DNA from: Tubiluchus corallicola
Lineage: Eukaryota; Priapulida; Priapulimorpha; Priapulimorphida; Tubiluchidae
Length of the DNA: 64,000 nucleotides
Direction: 5' to 3'
NCBI GenBank assembly: GCA_030141605.1
Contig: JAQGDQ010000027.1
Location: 299,812 to 363,811, forward strand
The notes under the pieces are model-generated. The model saw nothing but the letters and a program-made list of their open reading frames with translations, was not told the origin of the DNA and searched no databases. The translations under genes and the position numbers were made by a program. Shown piece after piece: positions 6,339-64,000 of the stretch. The stretch's first letter is position 1. Each line of letters starts with the position of its first letter.

Positions 6339-7265
6339 CTAATCATCTGGCAATACAAGTTGAAACTTGCAAATTAGTAACTTTTTGAAAGCTGTGCGAA
6401 ATTCAGAGCTTCTTGTATAAACGAGTGGATACACTATAAGTCTAGAATAGCAAAGCATGTGCTCAAATAAATATGCCCATGGTTCTACACCAAAGACACT
6501 GTGCACAATTTCAAAAACCATATACATTAATGATAGTACTATAAAAGACAACGTTGCACACCCCATTGTGACAGTGCATTTCTTTTCCAACTGAGCACAT
6601 TTCGAATTTTTATGAAAATTACCTAATTCTGTCGATATCTTAATTGCTTGCTGATGAGCCTTGCGCCATATGACACCATATACAATAACCAGTCCAATAG
6701 ATGGCAAAATGTACACGAAAACATATAATGCCGGAACATACGGATCTGAAAAGTTCCAATGGCAAGGAATTCCATTTTTTATCCAGCTAGGCAATAAAAC
6801 AATGCATAATATCAGAGCAGCAAGTACCCAGGAAACGATCATTCCAGCAAGGGCTTTCTTTGCAGTTACAAATGCATGGTAACGCAACGGCAGAAATATG
6901 GATATGCACCTTTCGATCGCAATCAACCACAACACAAAGTAATCCACGGTAGAAAACTGCCACCAGGTGACGTGGTGATAACAGTGGATGCTAGGAGACA
7001 CATCAACTCCTTCAAAGAGCTTGGATAAACGAAACACTGTGAAAGGTGTTAAAACAATTACCATCAGGAGCCCATCCGCTGCCATACAAATAACACCAAA
7101 GTTTCTGCAAACACGCAGACTTCGATACTTTACAACTGAGAGTAAAATCAGCGTATTAACAAAAGTACCAACTGCTGATATAATAAGCAAGTAAAAACAG
7201 TATGTGATGCTTCGTAGAATGTGAGATTGTTGCACTCCCACGCCTACACTACTATTATTATACAT
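6339..7265 (-). CDS. Orphan class A (rhodopsin-like) GPCR, paralogue 1
   Basis: Intronless 308-residue seven-transmembrane receptor at the plasma membrane; ligand unknown. The short N-terminus has one N-glycosylation site (NNSS). TM1 keeps the asparagine (FVNTLILLSVVKY), TM2 has CMAADGLL with Asp2.50, TM3 ends in ERC in place of DRY, TM4 has its Trp (SWVLAA) and TM5 its Pro (YILPSIGLVIVYG). Extracellular loop 2 has the motif WIKNGIPC, whose Cys presumably pairs with the Cys at the top of TM3 (IHCYHH). TM6 lacks CWxP and TM7 reads SRLIVYPLVY, so Asn7.49 of NPxxY is replaced by Tyr. The next gene, 453 bp upstream on the same strand, is a paralogue with the same loop-2 and TM7 signatures, so this is a tandem duplication. 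The start is the first ATG before TM1. Confidence 0.85.
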   Translation of the reverse strand: MYNNSSVGVGVQQSHILRSITYCFYLLIISAVGTFVNTLILLSVVKYRSLRVCRNFGVICMAADGLLMVIVLTPFTVFRLSKLFEGVDVSPSIHCYHHVTWWQFSTVDYFVLWLIAIERCISIFLPLRYHAFVTAKKALAGMIVSWVLAALILCIVLLPSWIKNGIPCHWNFSDPYVPALYVFVYILPSIGLVIVYGVIWRKAHQQAIKISTELGNFHKNSKCAQLEKKCTVTMGCATLSFIVLSLMYMVFEIVHSVFGVEPWAYLFEHMLCYSRLIVYPLVYTRSSEFRTAFKKLLICKFQLVLPDD

Positions 7266-7718
7266 GGCGAATGGTAGAATAAATCAGGAGTTTCACTCTT
7301 ACAACATCTATTATAACAGTTATCTGTCAATCAATGTTCTATGTGCTCTAAAAACATGGCTTCAATGGTAGTATCATGTGTGTGTAAATGTGAATATTAT
7401 TTGAGCGCAAATATTTGAGGGTAAAGAGGAGTGCATTACAAACAATCAGTCAGGTACAAAAGCAATTAGGACATGGATTTCCGATTGACAACTTTTGAGT
7501 TAACAACTCTATGTTATATGTTTGCTGTGACCTGAACACACAGTATTACATTTCGGTGCAAGTTACTGTTTAATTACTCATTAGTTGCATCGCAAATCAT
7601 GCTTTTGATACTTGTAGTGCATTCTGAAAATGCCCTTTTCATTGACATTGAATTATATTGCAATATAGAACAATAATAATAGTTATAATTGATATCCATC
7701 ACTTGTATGTTTAATTTT
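7266..7718. other. Spacer between the two GPCR paralogues
   Basis: AT-rich and without exon-like frames. It must hold the promoter of the downstream receptor and the 3' end of the upstream one, but no element can be named. Confidence 0.5.
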
Positions 7719-8594
7719 TTACCTACTCGTAACACGACGAGATGATATAAATAAGTATTTAATTCCAGATCTAAAATCAGCCATACTTGAATATATCAGT
7801 GGATGTATCAGAGTGCGTGAAACAGCTATAACTCGAAAGGTGAAGTAGAACCACAACGGCATACAATCATGACAAAAAATACCAATAAGTTCTATTATAA
7901 CGTAAATCATCACACAGGTGAAGAAAGATACAACTATGAGTCCGATCGTTTTTGTTGCTTTATTTTCCATGACTATTTTCAACATGTGTGCTTCAGACAA
8001 CGTGGATTCAGTTAGTGTTCTTTTGTAGTGAGATTCAGCTTTGTACCAAAGAAGGCCATAAAGAACAACTACACAGACCATGGGTATTCCAAAGAGCACA
8101 GCAAAACACAATTTAACGTAAAGTTCTTCAAATGACCAACTGCCTTTACAAGGAATTCCAGACTTCACCCAACCTGGAACTGTGAATATACAAACAACCA
8201 AACTAGAGAACATCCAAGTAAGAACTAGAACAATTGTAAGTCTGTCTTGAGTAACCAGTGTTGGGTACTGCAATGGCCAGTATATAGCAACATATCTTTC
8301 AACGGCTATAACACAAATAACGTAGAAATCGACAACAGTCATCAGCCACCAAAAATAATCGAACAAGCAACGCTCACTTGACCTAAGCTTTGCTCCACCA
8401 AGCATTAATGGTAGATGGTAAGTGCAAAAAATACTGAAGAATAAACCACATAAAATCCCTTCGATGGCAATCGATATTAACGGCAAATTTCGCGTAGTGC
8501 GTAGTTTTCTAAACTTAATTATGGCAAATAACAGCAGTGTATTTAAAATGAATCCAAAAATCGATATCACAGAAATACAAGCAAACGAGATCAT
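7719..8594 (-). CDS. Orphan class A (rhodopsin-like) GPCR, paralogue 2
   Basis: Intronless 291-residue receptor. The ATG is preceded in frame by TAA, so unless there is an upstream exon the protein begins almost inside TM1 (ISIFGFILNTLLLFAIIKF). TM2 reads ISIAIEGILCG, with Glu replacing Asp2.50. TM3 carries an ERY box (CVIAVERYVAIYWPL). Loop 2 has WVKSGIPC, matching WIKNGIPC of the neighbour. TM5 has GIPMVCVVVLYG. TM6 lacks CWxP (FFTCVMIYVII). TM7 reads SRTLIHPLIY, with His at 7.49 of NPxxY. The shared signature SRxxxxPLxY and the loop-2 motif join the two receptors into one lineage-specific group. Class A membership is clear; ligand and coupling are unknown. Unusual TM2/TM7 polar residues suggest altered sodium-site behaviour or constitutive activity (inference). 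Confidence 0.85.
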   Translation of the reverse strand: MISFACISVISIFGFILNTLLLFAIIKFRKLRTTRNLPLISIAIEGILCGLFFSIFCTYHLPLMLGGAKLRSSERCLFDYFWWLMTVVDFYVICVIAVERYVAIYWPLQYPTLVTQDRLTIVLVLTWMFSSLVVCIFTVPGWVKSGIPCKGSWSFEELYVKLCFAVLFGIPMVCVVVLYGLLWYKAESHYKRTLTESTLSEAHMLKIVMENKATKTIGLIVVSFFTCVMIYVIIELIGIFCHDCMPLWFYFTFRVIAVSRTLIHPLIYSSMADFRSGIKYLFISSRRVTSR

Positions 8595-9414
8595 GAAAAC
8601 AAAATTTTATCAACCGAAACAAGAGTGTTATTCCTCTCACAACCAATGCTCTCATTGCCAGCCATGTAGTGTTTCAATTTTCTTAAATTTGATATCAGTA
8701 TGAATTTGTCTGCTGAAAAAATTTCCCACTAATTCAGCTAAACATATAGGAAAAAATGCTTTGCTGCATTTGTGCACAACTATAATGCAGTTACAAATCG
8801 TTATGGTACTGGACATTTGTATGGACGCTTTTGTATGGCAAGTTGCATTGTCTTCTAATTTAGCTAAAATGCATTAATGTGTTTATCTTATGTTGATTAT
8901 AGACATTTGATATTTTTGCTCTACATTAGCATAATGTAGCAATCATATAATGTACAGAGATGAAAACTGTCAGTATAATAATGAATCAGCTACTGTGTTG
9001 TTCAAGCTTTTCCACTGTCAAACTATTATTATTGAAATGCCTACCAGACTGTGAACAAAGATGATAACTAACACTAGAAATATATGAACATTATATTATT
9101 TTTAGCAAAGTGAATAAGAAGCTTTTCAAACAATTTCCTGCCAAAACAAAATGCTTTTTCTAAAGCTTCCTTCATTGGTACTGCGTATCTAGAAATTTAA
9201 AAAGCAATTTTGACCTTCATTTCTTTTTGATTGTGGCACACCGTTGCCGCAAACCGGTACCTAAATGACATTTTTTGAAAGCTGAAATCTAACAAAAACA
9301 ATATATTAAAAAACTAATAAATAAAAAACTAATTTTTTTATTACATGTCCTAATTCTTGTTACTAACAATAGTGAACAACAAACATTTACATTTTTTTTA
9401 AATTTCTCTCTCTC
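8595..9414. other. Intergenic spacer, GPCR 5' side to LARS2 3' side
   Basis: No exon or element recognised. It should contain the promoter of the minus-strand receptor on its left and the 3' UTR of LARS2 on its right. Runs of TTAATAT/AAAT give very low GC. Confidence 0.5.
9337..9342 (-). terminator. Candidate LARS2 poly(A) signal
   Basis: AATAAA on the minus strand, 73 nt after the LARS2 stop codon. Confidence 0.5.
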
Positions 9415-39939
<30,525 letters not shown>

Positions 39940-51796: not shown

Positions 51797-52051
51797 TTGT
51801 AGTGGAACTTTTGGAAGACGCAATAAATCAGTATTATAAATATATTAATTATTGTTAAGATACTTGATAAAATTAAGGAAAATATTAGTGTCCAAACATA
51901 AATTTGAGAAAACAAAAACTAGTTCTATAATAGTTTAACTAATAGATTTTTCAGACAAATTGTACTTTATATCATATTTAAAATGAAGTCAGTAGAAATT
52001 ATCAAGAACAGCTTGACTAATTAGTTTGTTTTATCAGCAAATTATTTCAGA

Positions 52052-55000
52052 ATGAATGGGACTAAAAAGACCACAGGAAGTGTACTCAATGGGGAAATAA
52101 AAACACCTTGCACCTACAGGACATTACAGGAAGCCTTTGAGGAAAACGTTGATGATATTGCCGAAAAAGTTGGTATCATTTATGATGGCAAGAGAGTGAG
52201 TTTTGAAAACATAAACAAGAGTGCAAATAAAGTAGCTCGCCAACTTTTGTTCAGAATTGGTAAAGATAAATCACATGCATATGAAGCCAGTGATCCAGTA
52301 ATTGCTGTAAATATGAAACCAAGTGAGAAACTCGTTATCGCTATATTAGCGATATTAAAGGCCGGTGGAGCTTATCTTCCAATACCCTCATCACTTCCAC
52401 CTAAACGTATAGCATATATACTAAATGATTCAAACCCCATCATTGCTGTTGTCGATAAAGAAGCAGAAAAGTTTCCATATGAAATACCCGTGCTTGTTTT
52501 TGATGATATCATTCATAATGAAGAATGTGGTGAAAATTTATCCCAAAACAATTCCACATTAGCGTGTGTACTCTACACATCTGGCAGTACAGGAGTCCCA
52601 AAAGGTGTTCGCCTACCACATAAAGCTGTACTTAACCGGCTGAGTTGGCAGTGGCACGAATTACCATACGAACCTAATGAAGTTGGTGCATTTAAAACTT
52701 CAATCACATTTGTTGATCACATTGCTGAAATATTTGGTCCTTTGTTAAAGGGCATACCACTTGTTATTGTACCAGAAGGAACAACTCGTAACCCAGGCAA
52801 CTTTATAAACTTACTGGAAATGAGGAATGTAACAAGATTGGTCCTCGTTCCATCTCTTCTTCTCAACATGATCACTTTCCTCAAAATGTCATCTGCTCAA
52901 AGGAACAGGTTGCCAAAACTATCCAAGTGGATATGCAGTGGTGACGTTTTACATGCAAAACTGGCGAACGAATTCTTCGACTACTTTGCAGATAAAAGCA
53001 CATTATATAATTTCTATGGGAGTACTGAAGTAATGGGTGATGTTTCTTATGATGTTTTTCATTCGAAACTAGAACTAGATAGCAAGATTAAACATGGTAT
53101 GGTTCCAATAGGAAAACCAATTGACAATACAATCTTGTATGCTGTAGATGATCAACTGCAAATTGTGGATGAAGGGAAAGTAGGAGAAATAGTTGTAGCA
53201 GGACTTAATGTTTCAAATGGTTATGTTGGTGAAAGCAGTGACGGCTCGAACAAATTCAAAGCAAATCTATTTACCATGGACACAGCCTTTTCTTCTGTAT
53301 TTTTGACCGGAGATTATGGCTTTGTAGAGGACGGAACAATGTTTTTTAATGGACGACATGACAATCAAGTCAAATTAAGGGGCCACAAAATTGACTTGCA
53401 GGAAATAGAAAATGCTGCACAAACTGTTCAAGGGATAGAATCTTGTGCAGCCATTTGTGTAACAGGAGAAACAAGTCAGAAACTGGTTGTATATTTCACC
53501 AATCGTCCTTGTTCAAGCTGCATGGAAGAAATTGTCCATTCAGCACTGCATGCAAAACTTCCTTCATACATGGTTCCTAAAGCTATAAAAATAGCCAAAT
53601 TTCCTTTACTGCCAAATGGAAAGATAGACAGAGAGAAACTGAAAGAAATGTTCTTGAAACAGCAGCATGACTCGTCACTTGAACATGCACATGATGACAA
53701 CGAAAACGCTCCAGAAGTACAAATTTTGCTGAAAACTATCTCCATTGCGACAGGGATTCCAAAGAATCTCATTGACCTGCAAGCAAATTTTTTTGATATT
53801 GGTGGCGATTCAGCCACAGTTATCTCAACAGTAATGCGTCTACATGAAGAAGGCTACACTGTTGCTGTTGGCGATTTTCTCACAGCAAGAACAATAGCAG
53901 ATATAGTAACGCTGATGCAGAACAATAAAATTACCTCATTAGAATGTAAATGGAGTGAGTGTACAGAAAAATACAAGATAATTTCACTCAGTGAACTCGA
54001 AGATCCCAATGAATTTATCAGAATCATTTCAGATGCTACTGCAAAAAAAGAACCCTTAACAAGTAATGCATTCACACCTACAGAAGATGTTTTTGCTCTA
54101 GTGGCCAGCGTCTGGAGCACTTTTGTCAGCGAGGGTCTCGCCTATGGCATCGTTGACCAAAACGGACGTCTTGTTGCTGGCTCCTTAAGTTTCGATTTTC
54201 ACAACGAGCCAGTACTGGATGTTCCAGACAGTTTCAAAGTTGTCATGGATGTGTTAGAGAAGGTCGAGACGCCAGCAAGGATCAAGCTAAAGGGAAGAGG
54301 AGTATTTTACAATTTTCTCATTGCTACCGACTTGTCTCTTTCATATGAAGAAAACGTGCAGTTAACAATTCTGCTGGAGGGCACAAACGTACAACAAGCA
54401 AAAAAATATGGTTTCGATGTCGCAATTTGTGTTAACACACATGATATCACAAAGGTAAGACAAAAATCTTCAACATGGTATCATAATCATAATCAATGTA
54501 TCAGTAATTGTTAATGTGACTATGTTATTGATTCCCCGATTTCCTCCATTACCGATCATTGGTTTATTGTGTCTCTTCACTCAAATACATCGATGTTTAG
54601 TATCAAAGATCTTGAGGACCAATAAAAATTAAAAAACTGGTCCCATTTTCTCACCACCAAGACAATTTTTTCTCCTATCCACATTAGATGTTTCTATTTA
54701 TGCTTTCTTGATGTTGACATCAGCACTGACTTTAGACTGAATAACAGCAGCAGCTTCTTGGAACATCCTCTTAATTTAACAGCTTATCCCTGGTTATTAT
54801 CTTTCTGTAACCCATTTCCATTCCTGCCAGTAGCCTGTTTTCCTTCCCATCACCTCTTTCAATTTAAGAACAACAAAATGTTTTGAAAACTTTTTCTGGA
54901 AGATACAGCCCCTCTGTGGTGAACATTGGAAATGCTCTGAAAATGCCCTCTGGTAATGAACACAGATTATCGAAGTAACTTTTAGTAATTTAGTGGCTAC

Positions 55001-55210
55001 TTTTAAGCAGTCAGTACATAATTGCATTTACAGAGACATTATCAATTTGTTTTGCAGATGATATGTTCCAAAATCTTTGGCTATGAGTTGATAGATGCCT
55101 ACAAATACAAAGGACACAAATGGAATGGCAAGAAATACTATACTCATATGCCAAATGAAGCAGATATTCACGTGATGGTAAAATATCTTACTAAAGAAAA
55201 ATCCCATTGA
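52052..55210 (+). CDS. ebony: Ebony-type beta-alanyl amine synthetase (NRPS-like)
   Basis: Cytosolic peptide synthetase; in insects Ebony joins beta-alanine to dopamine, histamine and other amines. Exons 52052-54454 and 55058-55210 join in phase to 851 residues (Drosophila Ebony is about 880). Adenylation domain about 1-525: LYTSGSTGVPKG near 174, TFVDHIAEIFGPLL near 219 with the carboxylate-pocket Asp position, NFYGSTEVMGD near 320, LTGDYG near 419 and PNGKID near 521. Thiolation domain: FDIGGDSA near 582-588, whose Ser carries phosphopantetheine. About 625-851 matches the Ebony-specific GNAT-fold amine-selecting domain; exon 2 supplies its last 50 residues (GYELIDAY, THMPNEADIHVMVKYL). There is no condensation or thioesterase domain, as in Ebony. 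The ATG is 1 nt after a splice acceptor (TTATTTCAG). Dysbindin is convergent downstream. The amine substrate here is not known. Confidence 0.93.
54455..55057 (+). other. Intron of ebony
   Basis: GTAAGA donor and TTTTGCAG acceptor, 603 bp. If retained, the frame continues 20 codons to a TAA at 54512-54514 and would remove the end of the amine-selecting domain. Confidence 0.9.
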
Positions 55211-55350
55211 TTGGACAACTGTACAGCTAGCTTGAGCAATAGCAATTATCAGTCGGCCAAAATAGCATTTGTAAATTATACTGGACACACACTGTGTTAC
55301 GTACACCATACTACCCACGTGAATGTACCAGTTTTTATGGTGATGTTACA

Positions 55351-55395
55351 AATAAACTATGAAGAGGCAATTAAAACTAAACAGGCAAATTTATT
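55351..55395. terminator. Back-to-back poly(A) signals of ebony (+) and dysbindin (-)
   Basis: AATAAA on plus at 55351-55356 (141 nt after the ebony stop) and AATAAA on minus at 55390-55395 (224 nt after the dysbindin stop). Cleavage 10-30 nt past each signal would make the two 3' ends meet or overlap near 55365-55385. Confidence 0.55.
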
Positions 55396-55618
55396 ATACT
55401 GGAAAATCTGAATTAATCAACAGGGTCGCACTAGTTGAGTTTATGTCAATATTTACAAGTTAATTTTGATCACAAATAATGACCACCTGGGCGACAAATT
55501 AGTCAGTTTGTACTTGACTAAAAAATGGCACAAATTTGTATTGATATAGATTATAAACCAGGTACCGAGATTAATAGGGTATCAACTAGACAAGATTTCA
55601 TAATCACATGTATAAAGT

Positions 55619-57150
55619 TCATAGTTCATGGTAATCTGTTCGGTCCCTAGCTGCCTCGATGATTTCTTCTGATTTACTGTCGTCCACATTTAGTGTTTGT
55701 TCCACTGTCTCTGTCGTGTCACTCAGAAACTCTTCTAATACTGCACTTTCAGCTTCTGTGCCCAAGGAAACATCTTCAAGTTTAGGAGAATCCATCAGTG
55801 AAATTTGTGCAGCACTTCCTAGAAAAATTCATGCTTTTATAACCAGCCCAGCTTACTGCATTTTTTTGTATTATATTCATGATAAACTGCATGAAAAGCC
55901 ACTAAACATATATTACAGCAAAGAGGCATGGTTTGTAAGCAAGCTAACACTCAACAAAGGTAAAACTACTTTATTTTTAATGAAAGCATAGTTCATCAAA
56001 AACTTGATAGATGGAGTACCCTACTTTCTCAACAGAGAATGGAACTGACTGATGAACAACAAACAGTGAGAGTTCTACATAACATCAAAAGTCATATAGT
56101 TCTATGATTTGCCGAACTACAAAAACCCAATGCGGGATATAGTAACATCAGTGATGGTATATTAACCATCCCAGAAAAGTTAATTAAACAGTGAAAATAA
56201 ACAACTGAAAAAATCCAGACATCAGCTGTATCGAATGAATGAATCAGCCGCATGTTAAAGCTAATCTAGGCAGGTACATGGTGCCAACATCAAACCTGGT
56301 AAGAAGTGCCGGATGCTGGATGCTCTCATGTTGTCGGTTAGTCAGCATCATTTCTACAAAAAACTTACTATTAATACGCCCCGATTGTCTGTATTCTTCA
56401 ATTTCTTTTAAAAATTCGTCTTCAAACACCTTTTCTTTTTCTTTACGCAAAGTGACATTTTTTCGCTCATACTCCGTGACCTTTTTTGCATGTTGCACTG
56501 CTAAGTTAGCTGAAACAGAATTAATTTACAAAATAATATACTGCTCTATAAATTTTCCAATCAATCCAGTTTTTCCCTCGGGTTTCTTTTCTGTGAAATT
56601 CTCTGCCAGGAAAATGCTACTTTTAATGTCAAACCTCACTCAATTCAAGAAGATCTACCAACAGTTACCTAGATGCATCACAACATTTTTACTTTTGTTT
56701 TTAAGTATAAGTAATCATTGGCCTGGCAATTTGTATAAACAAAATTCTGAATCCACAATAACAAGTTCTGAGATTTGCTTTTTTCACCTGTAACATAAAT
56801 TTTCGCTAGATTTTAATTGTCTACACAGACTTCTAATTTGAACACGCTAAAAACTTTTGTCAAAATTAATAAATTTTATGTAACAGTTCCACGTATCATG
56901 ATATATAATTTACAGCGTGAATGCCATTAGGTTTAAATCTTTCGAATTTGTGCAGAGAAAACAACAGTTGTCAGAAAAACTAAACATTACTTGCCTCTCA
57001 ATTTGTCCAAATCTGTTAACCTCTGCTGCCTGTAGGTGGTAACACTGTGTACAATTTCCTGAATGCTGTCCCTTCTATCCAACTCTGCTTGTAAATGCTC
57101 CAGCTCGCTCATTGCAGCTTCTACACTTTTAAAATTTTCTTCAAGACTAA
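55619..57150 (-). CDS. DTNBP1: Dysbindin, last three exons (5' end not found)
   Basis: BLOC-1 subunit acting in endosome-to-lysosome-related-organelle and synaptic vesicle traffic. Exons 57150-56995, 56509-56369 and 55818-55619 (stop TGA 55621-55619) join in phase. The first two encode a long coiled coil: LEENFKSVEAAMSELEHL, then DLDKLRANLAVQHAKKV and VFEDEFLKEIEEYRQSGR. From the LE of exon 1 to the HA of HAKKV the spacing is 58 residues, the same as in human dysbindin (recalled alignment), and VFEDEF..EIE.Y matches its FFEEAF..DMEQY. The last exon is acidic, with AVLEEFLSD matching the human EALDVFLNS segment. The intron between the first two exons uses a GC donor (GAG|GCAAGT). Upstream exons were not found up to 64000; they may lie beyond the LINE or outside the window. 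Confidence 0.88.
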
Positions 57151-57189
57151 CTGAAAGAATAATCCATTACAGTAGGGGTGCTTACCTGT

Positions 57190-57256
57190 TTAATAAAGCA
57201 ATAACAATAATAACAATAATAAGCAGTAGCAACAACAATAGCAATAGCAATAACTA
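57190..57256. repeat. AACAAT/AGCAAT microsatellite in dysbindin intron
   Basis: An irregular run of AACAAT, AATAAC and AGCAAT units just upstream (in transcript sense) of the 57150 exon. Confidence 0.75.
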
Positions 57257-57456
57257 ACCTTTCACTAAATTTTATTGCTTATGTATCTATTATTGTTATA
57301 CTTGTCTTGTCTACCAATAGCATGATATCATCATAAATCTGGCTTCTCGTCTGTTTAATTGCGCAGTACATACTCCTTAGTCACACATTTGTTTTTTTTT
57401 AGCTAATTTCACATTTTTTAAACTTTCTCATACTCATCTCCACATAACATTTTGCA

Positions 57457-59650
57457 ATGAATACATCTACATATCCTGTTTGTGACAGAGGTACCCATGC
57501 TGGCCAGCGGCACGTCCATTGTCATTGTTGTCATAGATGGTTACACTGGACATGCACATCTTTATCACTAGCAGGTTATCAAAACTTTGGTAACGACCAC
57601 ACTGACTTCTTTTGCACTAAATGCCTTCAAACGTTGTTTCCATTTAATAATATAGCTGACGAAGATGAATTTAGATTACTTGAAAGATTTTCCAATATTA
57701 GTCCTGTATTAGATAACAGCTTTCCAACACTCTAATCGTTTGATACTATTGAGGAAAACGAACATGATGGCAACAACAACATTGACCCAGATAAGCATTT
57801 CTTTAATCATTTGAGCTCTATGCCAAACAGTAAATATTACAACTGTAAGGTTCTTACACATAGCTAAACTAGATATTGCTGTAGTATAGTCTGTGGGAAG
57901 AGCTTCCTACCTATCACCCCTCCTTTCATAATATACTATAACCTATCCATGCATAACATGATCTTGGAAAGTGCATGACACAGATATCCAGGATAGTACA
58001 GTGTAACTGCTGAATCTGAAAGCAGCCAAAATGCTTTAACTTTTTTAACTTTACTTTACAAAAACGGTTAAAATCCTAAACTTGGTAATAAGAGTCTCTG
58101 AAGCACTAAACTTGTGCACATCTGCTATTTGACTGATCTAACATAAAGAGACTATCAGTGGTGATACCAAACTACTTCAGTTTTGATGTTGTGGATGGAG
58201 CTTTATTCACACTGATGAGATCTTGGAACTCTCTTATTCTAAACTACATGGAGAGGCATGACTAGCCACCAGTGTCCAGACGTTGTGGATTGTGGACGTA
58301 TCCTGAGTCAACCACGAAGACTTGTGAGCCATTCCTTAGTTCATATTTGATTGGTGCTGCAGCCGGCGTCATCACCGTTGATTGTTATGGCCCTAGACTT
58401 GAAGTCGTTGATGTGTTGCTGTGACTGATTGGAGTGAGCTACGTCCGCGGACTCCTCTCCCATGTCCTTGTCCTCTCAGGGGAAGGGTTAACTGATAAGT
58501 AGACATTTTGTTTTCTTTTCACTTTGTCATTTTTGTTATTATTAACTGCCTTTACGCGAGACTGTTATTGATAATATAACCTGTTCTAATTTATCTAAAC
58601 AGAGTAAAAAGTGAATAAAAATAGTAAACATAATCATAATCTTTTTCTCCCTTTCATATGAGATTTTATTGTTGGAATGTTTGGAATCTATGTACGTCAT
58701 GGTCAACATGGAAAACCATAATACCTAAGTAAACCCCCGTAAAACGTAACATCAAGCCTTAGACCCGCTGGTTTTTCACGGGAGCCCTTCGACATTGCAA
58801 CCTCTCTAAAGACATATTAATTATACCTGTGTGGTTGAATTTTTGGTTCATATGCCTTGTTGCCCTCTGGAAAATTGTAGGACAACAACCGCCCACGCAT
58901 GTTGCACAACCCTTTTATTGTGAATAAAAGATGACGCGACAGGTTAGTCAGATTTGTGGATGAGTTGGGAGGTAAAGAGTTGCACCCCCACCATAAAAAT
59001 CTACTAGCTCCCAACACAACGAAAATCAATTTAACTCTTTATACTGCAACACAAAATTTCGTAATCCATTCTCACTTTTACATTTTAATGCACATGTAGC
59101 TGGAAAGCTAATTTCAACCAAATCAGTAATTACATTGAGCTTTTACAGGGAAACTTTTTCTGTGAGTGCCATTACTGAAACCTGGCTAACAGATGAAATT
59201 TGCACCATACTTACTATGTCCGGAAATAAACGTGAATGTAAAAACAGACAATCTAAGAAGGGAGGTGGTGTGGCATTATTTATTCGAGACGATTTACCTT
59301 ATACTATTATGGAAAATTTGATCTGATGCATGAAATGGAAACGTTATTCATTGAAATTCATGCTTATCGAAGCAAAAACATAAATGACGGTGTAACTTAT
59401 CGACTTCTTGGTATCAATCCAACTAATTTCATCGATAAATTCTCTATCTTTTTGCACAATCTGAATCGGCATCGTAAACATACATTTCTTCTTGGTGACT
59501 ACAATCTCAACCTATTGAACTACTCTATCCGTAATAACACAAAACTAGTTCTAGATAGTATACTTGCGATTTTTTCTTTTCCTCTCATTACCCATCCAAC
59601 TAGAATTACTGTCCTATAGGCTACACTCATTGACAATATATTTACCAATA
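57457..59650 (+). mobile_element. Broken LINE: PHD-finger ORF and first part of endonuclease
   Basis: 57457-57735 encodes a PHD-like zinc finger (VCDRG, CHCCHRW, HWTC, FFCTKC) of the kind found in ORFs of CR1/Jockey-group LINEs; the first Cys is Tyr. Similarity then fades from about 57843 to 59090, which may be another insertion. The AP-endonuclease follows at about 59135-59620 in two frames: AITETWLTDE, KKGGGVALFIRDDLPY, then LLGDYNLNLL and THPTRIT. Stops and frameshifts rule out function. If dysbindin exons lie further right, this LINE is in a dysbindin intron, antisense. Confidence 0.75.
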
Positions 59651-60516
59651 AAGTAGTCACCACTTAATAGACTCACTTTGGGACCGACGTGTTTTGACCC
59701 AATTAACCGATTGAACCTACTAACCGATAGGTGTAGTATTACTGCTAAAGAAGTAGAGTCATCAGCTTACTATGCACTGCAAGGCTTTTAATCAATTATA
59801 GAAACGAAGTAATGCCCAAATTCCTTTGTGCAGTTAAAAATTAGAAAAAATATTGTAAGATATCAATTTATATAAGTGAATTAACAATAAGCTGAAAAGT
59901 ATACTTTTCTACATCACACAAGTCTGTTAGATCTTTACGCTTATGCTCCATTTTTCGAACTTCGTAACTCTACGCTCTTATTTGCTGTACGATGTTTACT
60001 CTTGTAAGCCACAAGAATACTGGCTGATTACTGTACCTGCATCTTTGACTATTAACTCATTAAGCCTGAAAGAGTGGTTTGCAACTACAGCATCAAAAGG
60101 AAAATGCTAGGCAAGTGATTAAATGTTTAGCTTCCAGAAACTCTTTGGGTAACGAGGTTAATTGCAGTGGGTGAGCGGGTAACAGATTCAAAGCAAAACC
60201 GCTAAACTAGCGCATTAGCACATGATAAACATACCTGCTTATAAACAAAATGGTACTTAACATGATTGTTTCTCATATATAAAGCACAGAAGGGAAGTAA
60301 AGATGACATAAAAGTAGGAAAGGCTGTTTGGGCACATACAAATGTCTTATTTTAAGTAAGTGAAGGAAAAATATTGAGGCAATTAAGCGAAGTTATTTGA
60401 GTCAATTACCGATAGTTCTTATGTATATTTGAATAGAAGTGGCCCGTTCCAGGCGTTTTTGAGTCAGTTAAGAGATTGAGTCTATTAACCGTGAGTCTAT
60501 TAAGCGACTACTACTG
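59651..60516. mobile_element. MITE inserted in the LINE endonuclease region
   Basis: 866 bp. The left end has AGTAGTCACCACTTAATAGA and CTCAC; the right end on the minus strand has AGTAGTCGCTTAATAGA and CTCAC. It is flanked by TA on each side. Removing the element and one TA joins LINE codons in frame (FTN to IDHQLISG), so the insertion boundaries are exact. No coding capacity recognised. Confidence 0.85.
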
Positions 60517-60518
60517 TA

Positions 60519-62650
60519 TAATCGATCATCAGCTCATTTCAGGGTGCTTATTGTCAGATATTTCCGACCACCTTCCCATCTTTACAATATGTGATTTAAG
60601 CTTGTCAACATCCAACCAAAAACTGAGTAATAAATTTCCGTATAATAATAACATTAAAACAAATATATAAAATGAGCTTAGTGGCAATGTTGGAATGACA
60701 TCTTGGCCTGTGAGAATGTCAATCAAGCTACTGAAACGTTCTTTGATTAATTCATCGATATTTGCTCTAAGCATATTAAAGAACGCACAACAAATAATAA
60801 ATAATTAAAAAATAAAAAACCTTGGATAAGTCCATTAAACATAAAAACAATTATACAAACAAAACCTTAAAACACTCTTCTGACAATAATGTTAAACAAA
60901 AATACAAACAATATCGTAACAGGATAACTACATCCAGATTGACATATTGCAAAAAGAAACTTGAAATATATGAGCATAATATAAAAAAACATGGGACGTC
61001 ATGAAGGAACTACTAAATAAACAAACGTAATTCTGCAAGAAGGATTAAGAATAAAAATAAATTTATTACAAACAACTATGCTGCTGGAAATATGTTCAAT
61101 ACTCACTTCGTCAAGATTGGTCCTAAATTAGCCGAAAATATTAGCCCGTCAACATTTCATTTACCAATTTCTTAAAGGGTAATTATAGTCATTCCTTCTT
61201 TTTTTATCCAACTATACCTGATGACATAATCAAGATCAGCAAATCACTTAGTCCAAAGACCACTCTTGGTGTCTTTAATATTTCCCCGAAAATTGTATCT
61301 GACATAATTGAGCCAATTTCTGTGCATTTAAATCATTTGATCAACCTCTCTCTCTTAGTAAAGGCATTTTTCCTGATCAAATGAAGCATGCTGTAATAAC
61401 TCCCATTTTCAAATCTGGTGACACTACAAATATATAAACAATTACAAATCCATTTCTTTGCTTCCTGTTTTCTCAAAAATTCTAGAAAGATATACATACA
61501 ATCAACTGAACAACTATTTAATTATAAACGAAATTTTAAACCCTAACCAATTTGGCTTTTGCAAAAATTCTTCTACTGACCTGGCACTCTTAACAGTCTG
61601 AAAAAAATTAATGAACACCGTTGAAAATAATTCTGTTACAGCTGGAATCTTCTAAGACCTCTCTAAAGCATCTGATACGGTCAACCATACAATATTAGTC
61701 AATAAATTATCTCAGTACGGCTTTAGGGGGCATAAGACTGACTCTAAAGTTACCTAAGTAATCGTCCACAATGTGTCAAGTGCAACAACATCTTTTCTGA
61801 CCAGGCAATAGCAATTTGTGGAGTACCACAAGGGTCAATCCTAGGACCCCTCTTATTTGTAATTTATATCAACGACATACAAAACATCCAACACAATAAG
61901 AAAATAACACAATTTGCAGACGGCATGACAATCTTCTTAGACTTTGATAATTTTTCTGAAAATAATATGACTACAATTTTGGGTGACCTATCTAAATGGT
62001 TCAAAGCTATTGAACTTTCTCTTAATGCAAATAAAACTAAATGTGTCATGTTTTGCTCTAGAAACAAACCACTTCCCCCAAATTCTGATCTTCTAATAAT
62101 CGATGGTTCCCCTATTGAACAAATTAAACAAATAAAATTTGTAGGCATCATGTTACACGAAAATCTAGACTGGAACCCTCACATTAATATGATTAGCCTC
62201 AGAATGGCCAAAAATGTTGGAATCATTTCTTATATCAAAAATAGTCTTTCTCAAAAGCATTTAAGAACCTTATATAATTGTTTAGTCATACCATATTTAA
62301 ACTATGCCTGTATTTTATGGGGTCCAACCTATCCATCAAACCTAGATTCTCTCCATGCTCTTCAACATAAGTTTATTTGCATTTTTCATGCCTCTTTTGA
62401 ATTGGCACCTCAAAGATTTCAAACAAATCACCATTGACGACTTAATGCACTATAAATCTCTGTCACCTTTTTTCGTTAATCCTGTTAATCTTAATCAGAA
62501 ACATTACAATATAAGATTTAATGAGTATCAAGTTGGCCGGTATAGGATAATGTTGCGAAACATTTCATCTCATTTATTGATCCTATCATGTGGAACCTGC
62601 AAAAATACCTGCAAATATTAAGTCAATTTTGTCGTTACCAAGATTCAAAA
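60519..62650 (+). mobile_element. Broken LINE: end of endonuclease and reverse transcriptase
   Basis: Starts with IDHQLISG and SDISDHLPIFT, the conserved endonuclease end. Reverse transcriptase follows in several frames: SPKTTLG, FPDQMKHAVITPIFKSGD, NQFGF, a DLSKA-like stretch, GVPQGSILGPLLFVIYIND, then FADGMTIF where the active-site FADD is expected. The 61925-62437 frame covers LNANKTKCVMF, KFVGIMLHENLDW and CLVIPYLNYACILWG. The catalytic motif has D to G and there are many stops. The 3' end is near 62650, with no clear tail repeat. Confidence 0.8.
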
Positions 62651-64000
62651 AAAGTTTGAAAAATTTATTCAATAATTCATATTAAATATTAAGCTTGTGT
62701 AGTATATGACGCATGTTCAAATTCACGGTATGTGCCAGACTGGTCCATAGTATACTTCTGTTCATAAATGTGTATATATTTTAGCGATGTCCTAATAGCA
62801 ATCTCATATTCATTCTCATTCACATCATTTCACTAACTTAATCCTCATTCCATCATTTTACCTTCCCTTTTTTGCACCTTAACACCAGCACCCATTAATT
62901 GCATTATAGTCGCACAAGTAATGCTTGTGACTGTAATGCAAGCAACAATTTATATAGTTGAATAAAAAGCAGAATAAAAAAACTAATCACTTGCGCTAAA
63001 TTAATAGAACTCTCTAGACTCTGAAAAGAACCTGTTTTGCTCAAAGCTGGCACTAGGAAATATGCATTAGTACCACATCACACATGGTATTGAAACTGCT
63101 CATTAACGATCAAAAACAAATGAAGTGTGAACATTCCACAAAGTATCTTGGTTATGGAGAAAATAATGGATGCAACAACTTGGGGCCATTATGTAATTTT
63201 TCACGTAAAAACATGAAATTGGAATGCCAAATTGAATTATCCCAATTAGATTCACTGGACATGTAAGTGGATATCCTAGTAAACCATTTTTTCTCTGTCC
63301 ATAATGTGCTTGTTTTTCATCTGCAAAGTTTACTTTTTTCAAAGAACGTTTGTTCCATTTGCGTGAAACCCTGTCGAAAAGCAAATCCTATGCAAAAACT
63401 CTGGATCTTTATGAAAAGCAAACCAGGCCTGTAAATCTCTATGTAATACTGTAATAATGATATATAGCAAGCTCCTTAACGCAATTCCATCCATTAATAA
63501 TCTAAGTTATGACAGACACACGAAATACTTGAAAATGGCAGCTGTTTGCTTGGCATTTTATTTTTTCAATAGACTTACTGAAAAATAAAGCATCATTACG
63601 ATGTTACAAAAGGAAATTGTATATCCACAAACTGGTAAAATCCAGATATATGCTAGCAGAATCATCATGAATTATACCCTATGTTAAAGTCGGAAATTTT
63701 GTAGCACACTGACTCGAGCAGTAAATTGTAGTATAGTGTACCAAATACCTCTCAATTTAATTAGAAAAAACACAAAACGCGGTGTTATAATTCAGGTCAG
63801 AATGTCAAATATAAATGTTGAAGTAATCCAGTACAGTTATTTGGTGACGTAGAAGTAAACTTTTTGTGTGCAAGCAGGTACACGTACTTCTAACTGATAC
63901 TTCTGAGTAAGAAAGTTATTTATTCATTGCCTGAATGCCAGTATAAAAATCACACACAGTTGTCAGAGAAGATTAACAAAAAAATTACCGAGTAATGTGT
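62651..64000. other. Window end, mostly without recognisable content
   Basis: Apart from the candidate exon at 63345-63442, no gene or repeat was recognised. The 63084-63266 frame ends at a good donor-like GTAAGT but has no known motif. Confidence 0.4.
63345..63442 (+). CDS. Candidate internal exon of an unrecognised gene
   Basis: 98 bp between a pyrimidine-rich acceptor (ACTTTTTTCAAAG) and a GTAATA donor, open for 32 codons in one frame and reading RLFHLRETLSKSKSYAKTL, then DLYEKQTRPVNLY. The amphipathic, charged sequence looks protein-like. No flanking exon could be joined: the upstream 63084-63266 frame meets a stop when spliced to it. It may be chance. Confidence 0.3.

Follow-up and report, generated by a model that had tools for sequence, protein, structure and literature searches.

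Does the tail-to-tail position of an Ebony-type synthetase gene and a dysbindin gene reflect an old or functional linkage, or did the two genes come to lie side by side by chance? The question arises from work in the fly. A review passage (PMC7402321, citing Shao et al. 2011) states that the glia of Drosophila dysb mutants express less Ebony, and the dysbindin-Ebony link in glia, to which an earlier sequence-only reading of this locus had pointed, is real as far as that passage goes. The effect, known from an insect, is exerted in trans and does not require physical linkage. We analyzed the gene pair in a stretch of 64,000 nucleotides (referred to as the window), together with the rest of the genome.

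The plus-strand gene encodes a putative beta-alanyl-amine synthetase

The plus-strand gene consists of two exons (52052-54454 and 55058-55210), which together encode 851 aa in a frame that is intact and open throughout. Its reading frame, counted from stop to stop, is 52025-54514. The first exon begins with the ATG at 52052 and harbors the adenylation domain, the carrier domain, and most of the amine-selecting domain. The donor AAAG/GTAAG at 54455 and the acceptor TTTTGCAG/A at 55058 delimit a single GT-AG intron (54455-55057) located near the end of the amine-selecting domain, and the second exon ends with the stop codon TGA at 55208-55210.

Pfam analysis revealed an AMP-binding domain (PF00501; 9.7e-57), which corresponds to the adenylation domain, and a PP-binding domain (PF00550; 7.6e-10), which corresponds to the carrier domain and contains the phosphopantetheine-serine motif FFDIGGDS. 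The C-terminal adenylation subdomain was weak, with a score slightly under the Pfam cut-off. Furthermore, the last 220 aa matched the aryl-alkylamine-selecting domain of Drosophila Ebony (PDB 6dym; E 2.6e-10), and the NEP motif was aligned. This domain is located at the C terminus, where a condensation domain would otherwise stand. The open frame of 851 aa, the AMP-binding and PP-binding domains, and the 6dym match confirmed the earlier proposal of a complete Ebony-type synthetase that ends at 55210. No rival gene was found for this reading frame or for that of dysbindin.

The ten specificity positions of the adenylation domain, as read off the alignment, are VDAVISFGDK, with the Asp shifted from position 235 to 236. 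We take a VD... code with this shift to be a mark of beta-alanine-activating domains; a full-text literature search revealed no paper linking the VD... adenylation code to beta-alanine. Because of its domain architecture and its specificity pocket, the predicted protein fits a beta-alanyl-amine synthetase. As judged by its domains and motifs, the adenylation domain would activate a beta-amino acid, probably beta-alanine, and load it onto the carrier domain, and the C-terminal amine-selecting domain would hand the loaded amino acid to a biogenic amine.

The window copy and Drosophila Ebony share the A-T-amine-selecting architecture, the NEP motif in the amine-selecting domain, a beta-alanine-like adenylation code, and a similar length (851 aa in the window versus 879 aa in the fly). 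However, their identity is 33.5%, and the fly protein is more similar to another copy in the same genome (on contig C1594). Outside insects, a flatworm single-module nonribosomal peptide synthetase (NRPS) makes beta-alanyl-tryptamine, a reproductive signal (PMC11214079). The schistosome and planarian enzymes described there are likewise Ebony-like and join beta-alanine to a monoamine.

The minus-strand gene matches dysbindin and extends beyond the window

On the minus strand, five exons with consistent splice sites join in phase. The last exon (55619-55818) contains the stop codon at 55619-55621 and is preceded by an exon at 56369-56509, which aligned to about residues 171-215 of the human protein, and by the coiled-coil exon at 56995-57150, which is followed by a GC-AG intron (AG/GCAAGT). 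Of the next exon (63989-64121), only 63989-64000 lies within the window, and the exon at 65416-65476 (window numbering) is located wholly beyond the window end. The window thus holds the 3' part of a gene that extends beyond it to position +65476 or further.

The joined product of 230 aa is collinear with residues 54-262 of human dysbindin-1, for which an unverified reference sequence was used as the query. The Smith-Waterman score of this alignment was 240, while the maxima of 500 shuffles each were 89 (full), 87 (heptad preserving), and 110 (local). The collinearity includes the acidic C-terminal LMD...FL region. In contrast, the identity to DTNBP1 (dysbindin-1) is low (about 29% over 143 aa), the C-terminal tail, which is long in the human protein, is short in this one, and the Pfam Dysbindin model PF04440 gave no match to the predicted product. 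In a search of the whole genome, PF04440 also detected nothing; the model was silent in every control genome too. Its silence speaks against a formal assignment to the family but leaves the collinear dysbindin match unaffected. A search of solved structures (PDB) with the product also yielded nothing. That the gene instead encodes some other coiled-coil protein, as the missing PF04440 and PDB matches and the low identity might suggest, is hardly credible, since the collinearity spans five exons and also covers stretches that are not part of the long coiled coil (RYQDYWAQIHNETETCA versus RYEDTWAALHRRAKDCA), and since the score of 240 contrasts with maxima of 87 and 110 in the heptad-preserving and local shuffles, respectively.

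The predicted product is thus dysbindin, a subunit of BLOC-1, and its gene is present as a single copy in this genome. The stop codon at 55619-55621 and the five-exon match agree with the sequence-only reading, in which the last dysbindin exons on the minus strand end at 55619. The end given in that reading, 57150, is that of the third exon from the 3' end, and the gene continues beyond the window.

The large dysbindin intron (57150 to 63989) contains pieces of a non-LTR retroelement on the plus strand (57448-62437), which are antisense to the gene. They comprise a Cys/His-rich PHD-like frame, an endonuclease-like frame, and a reverse transcriptase (RVT_1) at 61748-62437.

The neighbor of dysbindin is one of at least six Ebony-like genes

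The genome contains at least six Ebony-like genes. In addition to the window copy, at least five were detected, all of them on other contigs. The identity is 47% for C1594 (over the match), 46% for C338, 44% for C541 (adenylation part), 36% for C1152, and 35% for C2063. All five have beta-alanine-like adenylation codes (VDxxVSFGDK), and a clear amine-selecting domain is present in all except C2063. In several of them, the match is interrupted at the same late position at which the intron of the window gene is located.

When fly Ebony was compared with these copies, the highest score was obtained with C1594 (526 bits), followed by C541 (492 bits), while the window copy reached 447 bits. The fly query was an unverified reference sequence, the amine-selecting part of which agrees with the PDB chain of 6dym. 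Similarly, the score of the fly amine-selecting domain alone was 212 against C1594 but 142 against the window copy. In a tree of the Ebony-like copies, the window copy paired with C338 (95/96), and the remaining branching, including the position of the fly Ebony orthologue, was without resolution. The best match of fly Ebony in the genome is C1594 and not the window copy. Because C1594 and C541 outscore the window copy against fly Ebony, the neighbor of dysbindin appears to be a lineage paralogue rather than an evident counterpart of fly ebony, the most fly-like copies being located elsewhere. Furthermore, since dysbindin is present only once, no other Ebony copy has a dysbindin neighbor.

Ebony-like adenylation domains are known from Annelida, Priapulida, Hemichordata, Nemertea, Cnidaria, Platyhelminthes, and amphioxus (PMC10531068). 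The expanded family of at least six genes found here bears on the spread of beta-alanyl-amine chemistry beyond insects and flatworms.

A further adenylation domain was detected at C1761:376392-377873. Its code, DPLLDCAMGK (read off the alignment), is NRPS-like and unlike that of the Ebony group. This domain could be an acquired NRPS piece or a contamination.

Poly(A)-like signals in the junction are at chance level

The space between the two stop codons (55211-55618) is exactly 408 bp long, which is the distance originally given for the convergent genes. It has a GC content of 33% and contains no N. On the plus strand, the poly(A)-like hexamers AATAAA and ATTAAA are present at 55351 and 55370, respectively, and on the minus strand, AATAAA is present at 55390-55395 (TTTATT on the plus strand). 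The predicted poly(A) signals of the two genes thus face each other at a distance of 34-39 bp. If they are used, the 3' ends of the two genes would meet with little or no overlap. However, hexamers on both strands were found in 40% of dinucleotide shuffles of the junction (P = 0.40). The poly(A)-like signals are at the chance level in such AT-rich DNA, and the 408-bp junction offers no indication beyond chance that the 3' ends are coupled. The arrangement, with two genes whose ends face each other across a few hundred bases, is that of other convergent neighbors, and nothing distinctive was found here.

The adjacency is most probably a coincidence

The adjacency is probably that of an ordinary convergent pair of unrelated genes, which lie tail to tail by chance after insertion of an Ebony paralogue or a rearrangement. 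Coincidence, which the sequence-only reading had offered as its own alternative, is the best-supported explanation. An old functional linkage is weakened, because the genome contains at least six Ebony-like genes, of which the neighbor of dysbindin is not the one closest to fly Ebony. Most likely, the window copy would have been placed beside the single-copy dysbindin gene in this lineage, either by duplication and insertion or by rearrangement. Each gene would have a promoter of its own on the outer side of the pair, so that only the 3' ends face each other, and the effect of fly dysbindin on the Ebony level is exerted in trans, independently of linkage.

With at least six Ebony-like copies and an assumed number of about 25,000 genes, we estimate the chance that a given gene has an Ebony-like neighbor to be near 12/25,000. 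Nevertheless, the adjacency alone is weak evidence, because a reported link of any kind between any neighbors, looked for over a 64-kb window and over many windows, turns up regularly. The neighborhood of the two genes would be of importance only if it proved to be conserved in comparisons of synteny.

Among the other explanations, we considered that the pair represents ancestral microsynteny of a clade or of several phyla, retained through low rearrangement or weak selection and without shared regulation. Dysbindin is old, being present from flies to humans, Ebony-like adenylation domains are distributed over the broad range of animals listed above, and the junction is compact with a short gap, all of which would be in line with such a history. 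We nevertheless consider it unlikely, since the Ebony-like copies (at least six) are scattered over contigs and the one next to dysbindin is not the most fly-like. In addition, Drosophila ebony and Dysb are located on different arms of chromosome 3 (3R and 3L, respectively), and full-text literature searches revealed no report of ebony-dysbindin linkage.

A more elaborate proposal, namely that the convergent arrangement of Ebony-like and dysbindin genes is old and conserved among spiralian animals, that opposed transcription couples amine inactivation to BLOC-1 function, and that fly glia keep only the trans part of this coupling, is in our view very improbable. We also considered a functional coupling in which opposed transcription or overlapping 3' ends tune the Ebony level to dysbindin activity, as a cis version of the trans effect in fly glia. 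The convergent order, the 408 bp between the stop codons, the facing predicted poly(A) signals 34-39 bp apart, and the lowered Ebony in glia of fly dysb mutants, as stated in the review passage, could be taken as indications of such coupling. However, the poly(A)-like signals do not exceed the chance level, and the fly effect occurs between unlinked genes and involves a more similar copy of Ebony. Moreover, close convergent gene pairs are common in animal genomes. Such coupling is therefore extremely unlikely.

Other genes in the window and in the genome

Beyond the gene pair, we noted three single-exon genes for rhodopsin-class receptors in the window. Two of them are on the minus strand (6339-7283 and 7719-8606) and one is on the plus strand (27883-28905); among solved structures, those of trace-amine and beta-adrenergic receptors come closest to the product of the latter, although weakly.

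Hox genes are distributed over several contigs. They comprise single candidates for lab, pb, Hox3, Dfd, and Scr, single Lox5-like, Antp-like, and Lox4-like genes, and two Post-like genes, all assigned by eye. The Lox4-like gene has a Ubd-A-like tail. Ten Hox genes have been described in the brachiopod Terebratalia (PMC6325747), and the spiralian-looking set found here, with its by-eye assignments, resembles those ten. This repertoire suggests a spiralian and is consistent with an animal that is far from insects yet still a protostome. A search for COX1 yielded no mitochondrial match. A mollusc haemocyanin domain was not matched in the genome in a domain search that was silent in the controls, too.

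Finally, a single-exon gene on the minus strand is located beyond the window, at 89086-93189 (window numbering). It encodes a protein of 1367 aa that carries numerous ankyrin repeats, followed at the C terminus by a Mab-21 domain with a GS...EYDFLVVL stretch, and that resembles cGAS-like receptors.
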